DNA from: Bacteroidia bacterium
GTDB lineage: Bacteria; Bacteroidota; Bacteroidia; Chitinophagales; UBA2359
Assembly (NCBI GenBank): GCA_030427245.1
Contig: JAUHXA010000004.1
Location: forward strand, 62,001 to 126,000
Length of the DNA stretch: 64,000 bases
Direction of reading: 5' to 3'
Positions 22,438 to 29,869 of this stretch are shown here, piece after piece. The translations under genes were made by a program, and so were the position numbers. Positions within the stretch are counted from its first letter, which is position 1. Every line of letters begins with the position of its first letter. The notes under the pieces are model-generated. The model saw nothing but the letters and a program-made list of their open reading frames with translations. It did no database searches and was not told the DNA's origin.

Positions 22438-22469
22438 TTTGCGAATAATTAAAAATATGCTTTACTTTG
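22438..22469 (+). promoter_or_regulatory. Promoter of the ilv operon
   Basis: TTTG (22438-22441), a 20-base spacer and TTACTTTG (22462-22469) match the Bacteroidota TTTG/TAnnTTTG promoter with one mismatch in the -7 box. The predicted start is near 22476, about 27 bases before the leader peptide ATG. Confidence 0.6.
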
Positions 22470-22502
22470 TCTTATCAGTTGAAAAAAACAACCCTAAAAT
22501 TG

Positions 22503-22568
22503 ATGAATTCCGTTTTTAACATACTTGTCACATCTTTTATTGTAGTCAGCTTGGTCATTAGCAAGTAG
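22503..22568 (+). CDS. ilv operon leader peptide (21 aa)
   Basis: The short ORF begins MNSVFNILVTSFIVVSLV and ends Ile-Ser-Lys before TAG at 22566-22568. Ten of 21 residues are Val, Ile or Leu, including Ile-Leu-Val and Ile-Val-Val runs and a late Leu-Val-Ile run. It lies between a promoter-like site and an intrinsic terminator, upstream of ilvE. This is the expected layout of an attenuation leader peptide: scarcity of charged branched-chain tRNAs would stall ribosomes here. It is too short to be judged by homology; support is composition, position and the paired structures downstream. Confidence 0.7.
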   Translation: MNSVFNILVTSFIVVSLVISK

Positions 22569-22572
22569 ATAC

Positions 22573-22652
22573 AGGGTAGGTGTGTGAAAACATTTTGACG
22601 AAATTAAAAAACTCATAACAGCCATCCCTAAATAACAAGGATGGCTTTTTTT
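22573..22652 (+). terminator. ilv attenuator: possible antiterminator and intrinsic terminator
   Basis: AGCCATCC (22620-22627) pairs perfectly with GGATGGCT (22639-22646) over an 11-base loop and is followed by seven T (22646-22652). Upstream, AGGGTAGGT (22573-22581), which starts five bases after the leader stop, can pair with GCCATCCCT (22621-22629) with a two-base internal mismatch. It would compete with the terminator stem. A ribosome parked at the leader stop would cover the upstream arm and favour termination; one stalled at the Val/Ile codons would leave it free. Confidence 0.72.
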
Positions 22653-22791
22653 GTATAGGTAACGGCTACTTAGACAAATTCAAATAATACTCTGTAAGCG
22701 AGCGAATTAAATTTTAGAAATGCCTGATTTAATATTTTAGTTTGCTTTATTGACATTACTATTGAACAAAGAAAACAAACAAACAAACATC

Positions 22792-23679
22792 ATGTACACC
22801 ACCGACAAAAATTATGTTTTTCATAACGGTGCTTTCTTAAAAGCAAAAAACAACGGAGCGAGTTTTTACTCCCAAGCCTTACATTACGGATATGCTGCTT
22901 TTGAAGGAATTAGGGCTTATGGCACAGAACATGGAATCGTTTTATTCAAAGCAAAAGACCATTTCAAACGTTTTTTTCGCTCTGCTGAAGCATTGGATTT
23001 ACAAATCCCTTATTCGTATGAAGAACTAATCGAAGCAAGCCGCGAACTTTTGCATCGCAACGGCTTAACCGATGCCTATGTAAGACCTTTGGTTTATGGA
23101 GGGGATCAGATGGGCTTAGTACCGAGTCAAGAAGCGCAAGTATTGATTGTTGCTTTCAAATGGAAGAAATATTATCGAGCACCACATTTGAACTTGCACA
23201 TTTCACCCTATCGCCGCCTGAAACAGCCCGCTTTTCATGGAGATGGCAAAATCAGTGGCTACTATGTCAATGCGATTTTGGCAACCAAAAAAGCAAAAGC
23301 AAAAGGTTTTGATGAAGCCTTAATGTTGGACGATGAAGGCTACATCGCACAGGGTCCGAGTTCTAATTTTTTCTTTGAAAAAAACGAGAAACTATATACA
23401 CCCGAAAAAGGAAACATCCTACCAGGAATCACCCGAAAAACGGTCATAAAATTGGCGAAAGAAGCTGACATTGAAGTAGTAGAGGGTAAATTCAAACCAG
23501 AAGATTTAGAAGGAATCAAAGGAGCTTTTTTGACGGGAACTGCGGTCGAAATCATTCCTATTAGTTCTATTGACGGCAAACCTATGACCGAAGAATATGA
23601 ACATACAATGGGTAAATCTTTGTCAAATAGTTACCGTAGATTGGTCAATCTGCAAGAGCCAGAAGTGGTTTATTTTTAA
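22792..23679 (+). CDS. ilvE: Branched-chain amino acid aminotransferase
   Basis: The 295-aa class IV PLP aminotransferase catalyses the last step of Val, Leu and Ile synthesis with glutamate as amino donor. I use the ATG at 22792; an in-frame TTG at 22750 adds 14 residues without support. Visible motifs are YGYAAFEGIRAYG near residue 40, KISGYYVNAILATKKAKAKGFDEALMLDDEGYIAQGPSSNFFF around the PLP region, ILPGITRKTVIKLA and FLTGTAVEIIPISSIDG. It is the first structural gene of the operon and lies about 140 bases after the attenuator terminator, consistent with control by it. Confidence 0.95.
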   Translation: MYTTDKNYVFHNGAFLKAKNNGASFYSQALHYGYAAFEGIRAYGTEHGIVLFKAKDHFKRFFRSAEALDLQIPYSYEELIEASRELLHRNGLTDAYVRPLVYGGDQMGLVPSQEAQVLIVAFKWKKYYRAPHLNLHISPYRRLKQPAFHGDGKISGYYVNAILATKKAKAKGFDEALMLDDEGYIAQGPSSNFFFEKNEKLYTPEKGNILPGITRKTVIKLAKEADIEVVEGKFKPEDLEGIKGAFLTGTAVEIIPISSIDGKPMTEEYEHTMGKSLSNSYRRLVNLQEPEVVYF

Positions 23680-23825: not shown

Positions 23826-25499
23826 ATGCAACTCAATAAATACAGCAGACGCATCACCCAAGACGAAGGACAGCCCGCCGCCCAAGCCATGCTTTACGGA
23901 ATCGGCTTGACGGAAGAAGACATGAACAAAGCCCAAGTCGGAATTGTGAGCACAGGGTACGAAGGAAACACCTGCAATATGCACCTCAATGACTTAGCGA
24001 AAGAAGTCAAAAAGGGCGTGAAATCAAGTGATTTGGTAGGTTTGATTTTTCACAGTATTGGCGTGAGCGATGGAATGTCGATGGGAACAGACGGAATGCA
24101 CTATTCGCTTCCTTCGAGAGATGTCATTGCCGATTCGATAGAGACGGTTGTGAATGCACAGTGGTACGATGGATTGATTGCAGTGGTAGGTTGCGACAAA
24201 AACATGCCAGGTTCGGTGATGGCAATGGGACGCATCAATCGCCCATCCATTATGGTCTATGGCGGCACGATTCACTCTGGAAAATGGAAAACTCGAACGC
24301 TGGACATCGTTTCGGCATTTGAGGCATTAGGCGAAAAATTTGCAGATACAATAACACCCGAAGACTTCAAAGGAGTGATTCAAAATGCCTGTCCGGGTGC
24401 AGGAGCATGTGGAGGGATGTACACCGCCAATACAATGAGTTCAGCGATTGAAGCCTTGGGAATGAGCCTGCCTTACAGCTCTTCCAATCCTGCATTGAGT
24501 ATTGAAAAGCAAAAAGAATGTTTAGATGCGGGGGCTGCAATGCGATTATTGCTCGAAAAAGACATCAAGCCGAGCGACATCATGACCTTCAAAGCATTCG
24601 AAAACGCACTGACAATCGTCATGGTTTTGGGAGGTTCGACCAATGCAGTTTTGCACCTAATCGCTATGGCAAAATCCATCAATGTGCCTCTGACCATCAA
24701 GGATGTGCAACGTATCAGCGACAAAACGCCTTATTTGGCAGATTTGAAGCCCAGCGGTAAATACTTGATGGAAGATTTGCACCAGATTGGAGGCGTGCCC
24801 GCAGTGATGAAAATGTTATTGAAAGAAGGATTTTTGCATGGAGATTGTCTAACAGTGACAGGCAAAACCATTGCCGAAAACTTGGCAGATTTGCCCGATT
24901 TAACAGAAGGTCAAGATATTATTCATGCGTTGAATAATCCATTGAAGTCTTCTGGACACCTGCAAATCTTATATGGAAATTTGGCTGAAGGTGGTTCGGT
25001 GGCAAAAATTACAGGAAAGGAAGGCGAAAAATTTGAAGGAACTGCAAAGGTTTACAATCGTGAGGAGGATGCAATTGAAGGAATTCAGTCGGGTGAAGTG
25101 AAAAAAGGCAATGTGATTGTGATTCGCTTTGAAGGGCCTAAAGGTTCGCCGGGAATGCCCGAAATGTTGAAGCCAACGGCGGCAATCATGGGTGCAGGTT
25201 TGGGCAAAGATGTGGCATTGATTACGGATGGACGTTTTTCGGGTGGAACACATGGTTTTGTAGTCGGACACATTACTCCCGAAGCACACGTTGGAGGGCT
25301 GTTGGGCTTATTGAAGGATGGTGACAAAATCACGATTGATGCGGTGAACAATGTCATTGAAGCGCATCTTTCGGAAGAAGAAATTGCAGCCCGAAAAGCA
25401 GATTGGCGGCAGCCTGAACCGAATATAAAGTATGGAATTTTATACAAATATTACAAGCTCGTTTCGTCTGCATCAGAAGGATGTGTGACGGATGGATAG
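23826..25499 (+). CDS. ilvD: Dihydroxy-acid dehydratase
   Basis: The 557-aa Fe-S enzyme dehydrates 2,3-dihydroxy-isovalerate or -methylvalerate to the 2-oxo acids. Cluster-ligand cysteines are visible in [31 protein letters not shown] and [31 protein letters not shown] and [20 protein letters not shown] are further IlvD signatures. Length is normal. It is second in the operon, separated from ilvE by 146 bases of G-poor sequence with small repeats. Confidence 0.97.
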
Positions 25500-25641: not shown

Positions 25642-27426
25642 ATGAAGCAAGTAAAAAACAATAGTAAACAAGAAACCACTGCTTCTAAAACAGCGGTAGT
25701 CGATATGAAACCTCAAAAAAAGGAAAAACGAATCGTGACAGGTGCAGAAGCCTTGATTCTATGTTTGATTGAAGAAGGAGTCGATGTTATGTTTGGCTAT
25801 CCGGGCGGAGCGATTATGCCTGTTTACGATGCCTTGTACGACTACCAAGACAAAATCAAACACGTTTTGGTACGACACGAACAAGGAGCATCTCATGCGG
25901 CGGAAGGATATGCCCGTATTAAGCACAAGCCGGGTGTCTGTTTGGTGACTTCTGGACCGGGGGCGACGAACTTGGTAACGGGTTTGGCGGATGCGATGAT
26001 GGACTCAACTCCAATGGTTTGTATCAGTGGACAAGTGCCCAAAAGCTTGTTGGGAACAGATGCGTTTCAAGAAACAGATGTGGTAGGTGTGACCATGCCT
26101 GTTACCAAATGGAGCTATCAAATCACCGATGCGTCGGAAGTTCCAGAAGTTATAGCAAAGGCATTTTATATTGCCAACACGGGTCGTCCAGGACCTGTAA
26201 TGATTGACATGACCAAAAATGCACAGTTCGGCAAATTGGAATTTGAATACAATAAAGCTCCCAAAATCAAAACCTATTGGCCTAAACCAAAAGCAAGGCT
26301 CAGTCATTTAGAGGCTGCTGCAAAACTCATTAACGAGTGCAAACGTCCTTATTTGTTGGCAGGACAAGGTGTATTGATTTCGGGCGCACAAGCAGAACTG
26401 AAGGAATTTATCGAAACCGCAGGAATCCCAACGGCTTGTACGCTTCAAGGTTTGTCTTGTTTGGATACCGACCATCCTTTGAATGTGGGAATGCCTGGGA
26501 TGCATGGAAATTATGGGCCGAATTTATTGAGTGCTGAGTGTGATGTTTTGATTGCGATAGGCATGAGATTTGACGACCGAATCACAGGAGATGTGAGCCG
26601 ATTTGCACCACAAGCAAAGGTGATTCACATCGAAATTGACCCTTCTGAAATTGACAAAAACGTAAAAACAACGGTTGCCATCAATGCAGATGCAAAAGAA
26701 GCCCTTCAAAAATTGAATTCTTTGCTCGAAAAAAGAGAACATCCAGAATGGCTGCAACGCTTTAGAGACTGCGATGCGATTGAATACGAAAAAGTCATCA
26801 AAAAAACGCTTTACCCAACTGAAGGTGGCATCAAAATGGGCGAGGTGATTCGACATATTTCCGAAAAAACAAAAGGCGAAGCCATTATTGTTCCCGATGT
26901 TGGACAGCATCAAATGGCAACTGCTCGCTACTACAAATACACCAAAACCGATGGATGGGCTACCTCTGGAGGTTTGGGTACAATGGGTTATGCGCTTCCC
27001 GCTGCTTTGGGTTGTAAATTTGCCGACAAAGATAGAGAGGTCGTTGCGATTATTGGAGACGGTTGTTTTCAAATGACCATTCAAGAACTCGGCACGATTC
27101 ACCAATCGGGTTTGCCTGTCAAAATCGTAATCCTCAACAATGGTTATTTGGGCATGGTGCGTCAATGGCAACAACTGTTTTTTGATAGACGCTACTCCTT
27201 TGTAGAGCTTCAAAATCCTGATTTCATTGCCATTACCAAAGGTTTTGGCATTGAAGCCAAACGAGTATCACAAAGAGAAGATTTATCGAATGCTCTGCAG
27301 GAAATGTTGGACAGCAAAGAATCTTTCTTATTAGAAATAGTTGTGGAGAAAGAAGAGAATGTATTTCCAATGGTGCCTTCTGGCAGCGCAGTACATGAGG
27401 TGATTTTGGAGAAACCTGTTTCGTAA
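25642..27426 (+). CDS. ilvB: Acetolactate synthase, catalytic (large) subunit
   Basis: The 594-aa TPP enzyme condenses two pyruvates, or pyruvate and 2-oxobutyrate, the first common step of Val/Leu/Ile synthesis. After a Lys/Thr-rich 30-residue N-terminal tail come TGAEALILCLIEEGVDVMFGYPGGAIMPVYD, the activating Glu in VRHEQGASHAAEGYAR, the FAD-domain IGMRFDDRITGD, and the TPP/Mg motif GDGCFQMTIQELGT... NNGYLGMVRQWQQLFF near residue 475. It is followed by its regulatory subunit gene. Confidence 0.97.
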   Translation: MKQVKNNSKQETTASKTAVVDMKPQKKEKRIVTGAEALILCLIEEGVDVMFGYPGGAIMPVYDALYDYQDKIKHVLVRHEQGASHAAEGYARIKHKPGVCLVTSGPGATNLVTGLADAMMDSTPMVCISGQVPKSLLGTDAFQETDVVGVTMPVTKWSYQITDASEVPEVIAKAFYIANTGRPGPVMIDMTKNAQFGKLEFEYNKAPKIKTYWPKPKARLSHLEAAAKLINECKRPYLLAGQGVLISGAQAELKEFIETAGIPTACTLQGLSCLDTDHPLNVGMPGMHGNYGPNLLSAECDVLIAIGMRFDDRITGDVSRFAPQAKVIHIEIDPSEIDKNVKTTVAINADAKEALQKLNSLLEKREHPEWLQRFRDCDAIEYEKVIKKTLYPTEGGIKMGEVIRHISEKTKGEAIIVPDVGQHQMATARYYKYTKTDGWATSGGLGTMGYALPAALGCKFADKDREVVAIIGDGCFQMTIQELGTIHQSGLPVKIVILNNGYLGMVRQWQQLFFDRRYSFVELQNPDFIAITKGFGIEAKRVSQREDLSNALQEMLDSKESFLLEIVVEKEENVFPMVPSGSAVHEVILEKPVS

Positions 27427-27484
27427 ATGCTAATTGAGAATTAATAATTATCAATTAAACCTGTCATCTAAATATCCAAATAAA

Positions 27485-28096
27485 ATGAAAAAAAATAATT
27501 ATACCATAACCGCCTATACAGAAAATACAGTCGGTTTATTAAGTCGCATCACTGCAATTTTTACTCGGCGACACATCAATATCAAAAGTCTCAATGTTTC
27601 GGAAACAGAGAAAAAAGGCATTTCCCGGTTTACAGTTGTCATTTGCGAAACCGAAGACATGACGAGTAAAGTAGTTAAGCAGATTCGCAAGATTGTGGAG
27701 GCAATGTATGTTGATTTTCATACCGACAATATGATTATCTCTACTCAATTGGGAATGTTCAAAATCAAAATGGTGGAAGAACAGTATGCCAACAATGTTC
27801 GATTATTGGCCCAAAAATTTGATGCATCGGAAATGGCTCGTTCTGGAAATATGATTGTATTCCAAAAAACGGGTAATCGAGAAGAATTGGAGGCATTTTT
27901 AGCAGAACTCCGTACCTTTGGAGAAGTAGAATATGCCCGTTCGGGACGTGTGGCTTTGTCTATTAGAAGTATTCCTCTCCGAAAAATCATGGCGCTTTTG
28001 CCTGCAATGCACAACTATGAGGACAACTATACAATGGACCACCATGGAGAATTAGAAGATTTGGAGGTGAGTATGAATGGGAATAGTATGCACTAG
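27485..28096 (+). CDS. ilvN: Acetolactate synthase, regulatory (small) subunit
   Basis: The start is the ATG at 27485 (MKKNNYTITAYTENTVGLLSR); an in-frame TTG 17 codons upstream is not needed. The 203-aa protein has an N-terminal ACT domain (VGLLSRITAIFTRRHINIKSLNVS), which binds valine for feedback control, and a second ACT-like half (RLLAQKFDASEMARSGNMIVFQKTG... FGEVEYARSGRVAL). It activates the large subunit and confers feedback inhibition. It is longer than the E. coli IlvN and resembles IlvH-type proteins. A related ATAATTATCAATTAAAC element precedes it. Confidence 0.92.
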   Translation: MKKNNYTITAYTENTVGLLSRITAIFTRRHINIKSLNVSETEKKGISRFTVVICETEDMTSKVVKQIRKIVEAMYVDFHTDNMIISTQLGMFKIKMVEEQYANNVRLLAQKFDASEMARSGNMIVFQKTGNREELEAFLAELRTFGEVEYARSGRVALSIRSIPLRKIMALLPAMHNYEDNYTMDHHGELEDLEVSMNGNSMH

Positions 28097-28105
28097 TTTA
28101 ATTTT

Positions 28106-28165
28106 GAAGTAAGATGTAGGAAGTAGGAAGTAGGATTTTTCATATAGGTTCTTGCTTCTTACTTC
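28106..28165. repeat. Intergenic hairpin element between ilvN and the GNAT gene
   Basis: GAAGTAAGA (28106-28114) pairs with TCTTACTTC (28157-28165); between them are tandem GTAGGAA units (GTAGGAAGTAGGAAGTAGGA). It belongs to the same sequence style as the elements at 4508 and 18516 and may weaken read-through inside the operon. Confidence 0.6.
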
Positions 28166-28184
28166 CCCCAAAATACCAATCACC

Positions 28185-28703
28185 ATGATGACCATTCGAG
28201 ACTTTCAGCTTTCAGATTCCCAAGCCGTTGCCAATATTTACAATGAACATACGATGGCTTATACCGCTACAATGGATGCGATGATCAGAACTGCCGAAGA
28301 CATTGAAGGCTGGTATCATAAGTTTGGGGAACGAGAATTATTGAAGGTAGGAGAAGTTGATGGAAAAATAGTGGGTTGGGGCATTATCAAAAAATACAGC
28401 GATAGAGTAGGTTATCGAACAACTTGCGAAACAGCGGTTTATTTCACAAATACTGCAACGGGCAAGGGCTACGGTACGCAGATGAAAAAGCTCTTGATTG
28501 AACTCTGCAAAAAATTGAAATACCATCATCTGGTGGCAAAAATTTGGACGAGCAATACTGCAAGTATTGAATACAATCGAAAGCAAGGCTACGAAATTGT
28601 AGGCGTACAGAAAGAGGTGGGATACTTGAATGGGAAGTGGGTGGATGTCACGATTATGCAGTTGGTATTGAAGGACGTGCCGCCTGTGGATGATAAATTT
28701 TAG
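28185..28703 (+). CDS. GNAT family N-acetyltransferase (phosphinothricin acetyltransferase-like)
   Basis: I start at the ATG at 28185 (MMTIRDFQLSDSQAVANIYNEH); the TTG at 28152 lies in an intergenic repeat. The 172-aa protein has the GNAT fold: AVANIYNEHTMAYTAT, VGWGIIKKYSDRVGYRTTCETAVYFTNTATGKGYGTQMKKLL (acetyl-CoA loop), and ASIEYNRKQGYEIVGVQKEVG. It is closest to the Pat/Bar-like acyltransferases that acetylate amino acids or analogues. It sits between ilvN and ilvC, flanked on both sides by short repeats, so it may have been inserted into the operon. Substrate unknown. Confidence 0.85.
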   Translation: MMTIRDFQLSDSQAVANIYNEHTMAYTATMDAMIRTAEDIEGWYHKFGERELLKVGEVDGKIVGWGIIKKYSDRVGYRTTCETAVYFTNTATGKGYGTQMKKLLIELCKKLKYHHLVAKIWTSNTASIEYNRKQGYEIVGVQKEVGYLNGKWVDVTIMQLVLKDVPPVDDKF

Positions 28704-28807: not shown

Positions 28808-29869
28808 ATGGCTAAAATTAACTTTGGTGGAACGGTAGAAAACGTTGTCACCCGTGAAGAATTTCCTTTAGAGAAAGCACGAGAAGTGCTAAAAGACGAA
28901 GTAATTGCAATCATTGGTTATGGTGTTCAGGGACCTGCACAGGCATTGAACCTTCGTGACAACGGCTTCAATGTGATTGTTGGACAGCGAAAAGGCTCTA
29001 CAACTTGGGACAAAGCCCTTGCCGATGGATGGGTAGAAGGTGAAACTTTGTTTGAAATTGAAGAAGCTTGCCGTCAAGGTACGGTGATTCAAAGTTTGCT
29101 GTCAGATGCAGGTCAAATTGCAGTTTGGCCTAAAATGAAGCCTTATTTGACTCCAGGCAAAGCCTTGTACTTTTCACATGGTTTTGCGATTACTTACAAA
29201 GACCAAACAGGGGTTGAAGCACCTGAAGGAGTAGATGTTATCTTAGTTGCTCCAAAAGGTTCGGGTACAAGTGTACGCCGCTTATTTGTAGCAGGTCAAG
29301 GTATCAATTCCAGCTATGCGATTCACCAAGATGCTACGGGCAATGCTTACGAAAGAGTGATTGCTTTGGGAATTGGAGTCGGTTCGGGCTACTTGTTTGA
29401 GACGACTTTCAAGAAAGAAGTAACGAGCGACTTGATGGGCGAAAGAGGTGTTTTGATGGGAGCTATTGCAGGTATCATGGAGGCACAGTACAATGTACTC
29501 CGCAAAAATGGACACTCTCCAAGTGAGGCCTTCAATGAAACTGTAGAGGAATTGACTCAAAGTTTGATTCGTTTGGTGGGTGAAAATGGCATGGATTGGA
29601 TGTATGCCAACTGTTCTACAACAGCCCAAAGAGGTGCTTTGGACTGGAAAGACAAATTCCGTGATGCGACTGCTCCTGTATTCAAAGACTTATACGATAG
29701 TGTAGCTTCTGGCAATGAAGCGAGAATCACGATTGAAGCAAACAGCAAAGCGGATTACCGTGAAAAACTACAAGTAGAACTCGATGAAATTCACGACTCT
29801 GAAATGTGGACTACTGGACGTGCGGTTCGTGCTTTACGTCCTGAACGTCAAGAAGAACCTGTGGTTTAA
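28808..29869 (+). CDS. ilvC: Ketol-acid reductoisomerase
   Basis: The 353-aa enzyme isomerises and reduces acetolactate or acetohydroxybutyrate with NAD(P)H. It has the nucleotide-binding loop IGYGVQGPAQALNLRDNGFNVIVGQRKGS, then SHGFAITYKDQ, LVAPKGSGTSVRRLF, and the metal-binding C-terminal part (GERGVLMGAIAGIMEA, CSTTAQRGALDWKDKF). It closes the operon and is followed at once by a strong terminator. Genes of the Leu branch and threonine deaminase are not in this window. Confidence 0.97.
   Translation: MAKINFGGTVENVVTREEFPLEKAREVLKDEVIAIIGYGVQGPAQALNLRDNGFNVIVGQRKGSTTWDKALADGWVEGETLFEIEEACRQGTVIQSLLSDAGQIAVWPKMKPYLTPGKALYFSHGFAITYKDQTGVEAPEGVDVILVAPKGSGTSVRRLFVAGQGINSSYAIHQDATGNAYERVIALGIGVGSGYLFETTFKKEVTSDLMGERGVLMGAIAGIMEAQYNVLRKNGHSPSEAFNETVEELTQSLIRLVGENGMDWMYANCSTTAQRGALDWKDKFRDATAPVFKDLYDSVASGNEARITIEANSKADYREKLQVELDEIHDSEMWTTGRAVRALRPERQEEPVV

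Follow-up and report, generated by a model that had tools for sequence, protein, structure and literature searches.

The closest described systems are the attenuators of the E. coli ilvGMEDA, ilvBN and leu operons (Rfam Leu_leader and relatives). In Corynebacterium, outside the Proteobacteria, a branched-chain leader ORF precedes the ilvBNC operon (PMC11857589, PMC10272879), and in Salmonella two short ORFs within one leader control transcription into the mgtCBR operon (PMC3641672). A survey from 2010 stated that, before its own Firmicutes case, no leader-peptide system had been demonstrated beyond Proteobacteria and Actinobacteria, the atypical ermC leader excepted (PMC2965389). For Bacteroidota, strong indications of leader-peptide attenuation ahead of operons for amino-acid biosynthesis are reported in a transcriptome study of F. 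psychrophilum from 2021, whose main text contains neither an ilv case nor a tandem arrangement (PMC9723704). In addition, the Bacteroid-trp RNA motif (RF01692), named for trp, has been listed among the likely cis-regulatory RNAs of Bacteroidetes (PMC2864571). The original prediction had called such attenuators little described in the phylum. This is correct as to the amount of documentation, and needs amending in that the latter two reports, as far as the main text of the former goes, already describe them in part. In the openly accessible literature, no ilv attenuator was found to be described for Bacteroidota. Lopatovskaya (2010; PubMed 20198868) may have predicted some such attenuators earlier.

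Here, we analyzed a 64,000-nucleotide stretch of a Bacteroidia genome (the window), in which a putative attenuator precedes an ilv operon. With the E. coli systems it shares a leader peptide rich in the amino acids of the pathway, a terminator with a putative, mutually exclusive antiterminator, and a place before the structural genes. Unlike these, it has no Rfam match and no established conserved 1:2 pause hairpin, the leaders of its group are rich in Ile and Val instead of Leu, and the promoter is of the Bacteroidota type. The cases reported as likely in F. psychrophilum belong to the same phylum and also lie before amino-acid biosynthesis operons, whereas the Corynebacterium attenuator differs in phylum, operon order and RNA. 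Bacteroid-trp concerns Trp instead of Val and Ile, and neither the window nor the trp loci examined matched it. The Salmonella arrangement is comparable only to relatives of the window, whose two to three Ile/Val leaders each have their own terminator. Sequence comparison indicates that the element in the window is genuine and conserved, and that it adds an attenuator of a known kind to a group from which few have been described.

The Leader Region of the ilv Operon

The original prediction had placed a promoter, a 21-codon ORF with 10 Val, Ile or Leu codons, an upstream arm and a terminator with seven T ahead of ilvE, and all of these parts are present where it had located them. The region and the operon comprise the following features:

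22438 to 22469, forward strand: Bacteroidota-type promoter TTTG-N20-TTACTTTG, read from the sequence (TTTG 22438-22441, spacer 20 nt, TTACTTTG 22462-22469)
22503 to 22568, forward strand: leader-peptide ORF of 21 codons, MNSVFNILVTSFIVVSLVISK then stop, with 5 Val, 3 Ile and 2 Leu
22539 to 22559, forward strand: main run of control codons, ATT GTA GTC AGC TTG GTC ATT (I V V S L V I)
22566 to 22568, forward strand: stop codon of the leader ORF
22573 to 22587, forward strand: putative antiterminator 5' arm (AGGG 22573-22576 with 22626-22629; 22579-22587 with parts of 22613-22623)
22613 to 22629, forward strand: putative antiterminator 3' arm, overlapping the 5' arm of the terminator
22620 to 22652, forward strand: intrinsic terminator, 8-bp stem AGCCATCC/GGATGGCT at 22620-22646, seven T at 22646-22652
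22792 to 23679, forward strand: ilvE, branched-chain aminotransferase (TIGR01122, above cut-off)
23826 to 25499, forward strand: ilvD, dihydroxy-acid dehydratase
25642 to 27426, forward strand: ilvB, acetolactate synthase large subunit
27482 to 28096, forward strand: ilvN, acetolactate synthase small subunit
28152 to 28703, forward strand: GNAT acetyltransferase gene between ilvN and ilvC (best match ArsN1a, below cut-off)
28808 to 29869, forward strand: ilvC, ketol-acid reductoisomerase

The promoter matches the consensus TTTG-N18-21-TAnnTTTG at 9 of 10 positions, and the transcript is expected to start near 22476. Among 69 related loci, 56.5% carry a match scoring at least 9/10 in the 110 nt before the first leader ATG, compared to 5.5% of shuffled sequences. 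Val, Ile and Leu make up 10 of the 21 leader codons (48%). The core of the upstream arm, AGGGTAGGT (22573-22581), begins five positions past the last base of the leader stop codon. As the 3' arm of the putative antiterminator shares bases with the 5' arm of the terminator, only one of the two folds can exist at a time. The terminator hairpin (-11.6 kcal/mol) sits between the leader ORF and ilvE, and past it the gene order is ilvE-D-B-N-(GNAT)-C. The window contains a single leader-terminator unit. A hairpin within the leader ORF (about 22541-22573) resembles a 1:2 pause hairpin; we do not claim it as such, as no counterpart could be seen by eye in the nearest relative.

With high confidence, we propose that the operon is controlled by ribosome-mediated transcription attenuation, and that the element very probably turns on the ilv genes when Ile, Val or Leu run short. 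The parts, their spacing, and their conservation and co-variation in relatives are read directly from DNA; from these, we infer transcription, translation, stalling and an amino-acid response in the following way. Transcription would start near 22476, with a ribosome translating the leader close behind RNA polymerase. When the supply of charged tRNA-Val or tRNA-Ile is low, translation would stall within 22539-22559 and leave the arm from 22573 free to pair with 22613-22629 while the 3' half of the terminator has yet to be transcribed. With the antiterminator formed, the polymerase would continue into the operon. With an ample supply of the amino acids, the ribosome would reach the stop codon and cover the arm to about 22578, which would block the antiterminator, allow the hairpin at 22620-22646 to form and stop transcription in the T run. 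Support for this reading is strong from comparison and weak from the window alone.

Ile/Val-Rich Leaders Precede ilv Genes in Related Genomes

Contigs of related genomes were scanned for IlvD, giving 80 named Bacteroidota loci; genomes of the same family, order and phylum were sampled as well, and the upstream DNA was fetched. After removal of duplicates, we identified 97 units of an Ile/Val-rich leader ORF followed by a terminator at 69 loci, located before ilvE or ilvD. They occur in the family of the window and in records labelled Flavobacteriaceae, Crocinitomicaceae, Chitinophaga and Saprospiraceae, and also in two genomes of another class of the phylum (L210 and L212). In the order and phylum sample, the element was found near the gene in about 14 of 40 loci; at the loci without it, ilvD may not head the operon.

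These loci are not independent, as Flavobacterium dominates the sample and the contigs L080, L081, L083 and L085 are almost identical despite their different names. The records that hold the near-identical ilv leader regions of these four carry the labels Amniculibacterium, Pedobacter, Flavobacterium and Chryseobacterium, which suggests contamination or mislabelling.

The control set consisted of 178 terminators that lie in 45 related loci but outside the ilv upstream region. An ATG-started ORF with at least 40% Val, Ile and Leu, ending at most 60 nt from the terminator, was found at 4 of the 178 controls versus 35 of 70 terminators upstream of ilv genes. One of the four positives (L093) is itself a leader before ilvA of Solitalea longa, and the one in L095, a near-copy of L093, is presumably also an ilvA leader. 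Therefore, the true background lies below 4 in 178. The Solitalea longa leader, MKNLSTIITVIIIIVVILHT, lies with its terminator within positions 5560-5700 of L093, and a near-identical leader is found in Solitalea agri (L095).

Antiterminator Arms Co-vary with Their Terminators

Each arm was paired in silico with the 5' half of its own terminator and with those of other loci, using 9 to 13 mutually dissimilar terminators per draw. The summed energy of own pairings was about -173 kcal/mol, compared to about -113 kcal/mol for swapped pairings, and in each of 30 draws none of 4000 permutations reached the observed sum (z from -4.5 to -7.1). At the level of sequence, this is co-variation of arm and terminator across relatives. 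Clear pairs of arm and terminator are GAGAATGG/CCATTCTC in L106, GGATGATTGG/CCGATCATCC in L108 and GTGAGGCACT/AGTGCCTCAC in L199, besides that of L103 described below. The original prediction looked to relatives for conserved branched-chain ORFs and covarying stems, and comparison of their upstream regions revealed both, in the form of short Ile/Val-rich ORFs with terminators upstream of ilvE or ilvD and of arms that change together with these terminators. The comparison thereby also supports its proposal that stalling at Val, Ile or Leu codons would control the operon.

Across the 97 units, the arm usually starts a few bases to either side of the leader stop codon; in some loci, such as L105, it lies inside the leader ORF. 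The first paired base of the arm is located a median of 12 nt (quartiles 11-15) past the first base of the last control codon, compared to 16 nt in the window. A ribosome covers about 12 nt past the first base of its A-site codon. Hence, a stall at the last control codon would just free the arm, and a ribosome at the stop codon would mask its start. The arm position in the window fits this predicted geometry of freeing and masking.

The Putative Antiterminator of the Window

The putative antiterminator duplex of the window contains a 2x2 mismatch and has a predicted energy of -9.2 kcal/mol (shuffle P about 0.10); in 15 of the 97 units the duplex is as weak or weaker. The nearest relative, L103 (genome G005; IlvD 84% identical to that of the window), has the leader MFAVLSIIVVVIIIVTN and, in the same place, an exact 9-bp arm (AGGGATGGC against GCCATCCTT). 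The gap between the arms is 49 nt in L103 and 51 nt in the window, compared to 17 to 37 nt in the remaining loci. The exact arm of L103 and this shared, unusually long gap are the best evidence that the arm in the window is a degenerate form of a real arm. The antiterminator had been judged weak by eye, which is true of the copy in the window and does not extend to the perfect arm of L103.

A global fold of 22476-22660 was not unusually stable (z = -0.94), and the switch was not visible in it. In constrained folding, the antiterminator formed before the terminator was complete and gained, beyond AGGG/CCCT, the pairs of 22579-22587 with parts of 22613-22623: with the arm free and the RNA extended to 22632, the outer AGGG/CCCT pairs formed with P = 0.93 (-11.1 kcal/mol), whereas with a ribosome on the stop codon, covering to 22578, these pairs were impossible (-5.1 kcal/mol). 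Once the whole terminator was made, it prevailed at equilibrium in all states modelled (P about 0.94), so the switch would have to be kinetic.

Leaders Match the Amino Acid of Their Operon

Across the 97 ilv leader units, Ile accounts for 596 codons, Val for 240 and Leu for 106. Of the three amino acids originally proposed, Ile and Val are thus borne out, and Leu is represented far less. In the family of the window, GTC accounts for 66% of Val codons in leaders versus 25% in ilvD of the same genomes (P = 3e-8), and among leader Ile codons ATT is strongly preferred over ATC relative to ilvD; the GTC/ATT bias is also present in the named loci. The preference may reflect selection for sensitive codons, and the GTC bias offers a means to test models of which codons best sense starvation.

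Leaders for other amino acids were found at other operons. In the genome of the window, hisG is preceded by the His-rich leader MNFSNTHHHIHHCALHSIEAKGG, which has a terminator of its own (L115, genome G000, contig C154). Relatives likewise have His leaders before hisG, two of which (L116 and L118) appear to carry two consecutive His units, and Trp-rich leaders (WWW or WW) with terminators before trpE (L141, L143 and L145). Inspection upstream of thrA and leuA in the genome of the window revealed no leader, so not all operons of this genome are attenuated. No leader was present directly upstream of its trpE; the gene just ahead resembles trpS on visual inspection.

Alternative Readings of the Leader Region

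An ordinary terminator next to an incidental short ORF would provide basal attenuation without amino-acid sensing, with ilvE partly transcribed from a promoter downstream of the hairpin. The space of about 140 nt between terminator and ilvE indeed contains TTTT-N21-TTAGTTTG, a promoter match of 8/10, and the antiterminator of the window on its own is marginal. Matches of 8/10 are, however, frequent by chance (35% of shuffles), Val/Ile-rich ORFs repeatedly precede terminators at ilv loci and seldom elsewhere, arms co-vary with terminators, and other operons of the family have leaders matching their own amino acid. We therefore consider this explanation improbable.

Control of the terminator by a metabolite-binding riboswitch or a T-box, with the ORF as a by-product of an A+T-rich leader, appears still less probable, to the point of being hardly credible. 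Terminator-controlled ilv leaders of such kinds exist in other phyla. Yet Rfam covariance models gave no match at gathering score in the window, in eight related ilv loci or in seven his, trp and thr loci; the leader families relevant to these scans are Leu_leader, His_leader, Thr_leader, Trp_leader and Bacteroid-trp. The leader RNAs also share no aptamer-like sequence: spacers and arms vary, and what stays constant is the run of Val/Ile codons and how far it lies from the arm. Equally remote is a leader peptide acting in trans, as is known elsewhere (PMC7298713), or an ORF that regulates translation instead of transcription, given that the peptide keeps nothing across families beyond its Ile/Val richness, matches no Pfam or NCBIfam profile, and is followed by a terminator with a T run, not by a hairpin at a ribosome site.

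Our preference for ribosome-mediated attenuation draws on the parts in the window, the units at related loci, the swapped pairings, the arm of L103, the arm spacing, the constrained folding, the control terminators, the His and Trp leaders and the GTC bias. Counted against it were the weak antiterminator of the window, the terminator prevailing at equilibrium, the limited occurrence in the order and phylum sample, and the leaderless thrA and leuA. The comparison documents a long-established mode of control in a large phylum with few descriptions of it, and the ilv leaders scanned correspond to no Rfam, Pfam or NCBIfam model.

Consecutive Leader-Terminator Units in Relatives

At 19 loci, at least two consecutive units precede the first gene, and nine of these loci have three:

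Three units: L023, L026, L030, L032, L033, L040, L047, L053 and L064
Two units: L042, L076, L080, L088-L091, L106, L108 and L174

In the family of the window, two units were detected by script in L106 and L108, and a second unit was seen by eye in L107 and L109. These serial attenuators are more surprising than the single unit of the window. We think it reasonably probable that ilv operons of Bacteroidota are under Ile/Val leader attenuators, that many lineages have two to three of these in a row, every one with a separate leader ORF, antiterminator and terminator, and that their differing codon content would let more than one amino acid gate the operon multiplicatively. In this view, the window represents the single-unit form. 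Serial attenuators provide a natural system to study how consecutive attenuators shape a response. In Flavobacteriaceae such as Aequorivita and F. psychrophilum (whose ilv locus is L053, with three units), the first leader is mixed Ile/Val (e.g., NIIPSIIIAIVIITTA) and the next two are Ile-only (e.g., NTIIIISIIIRS).
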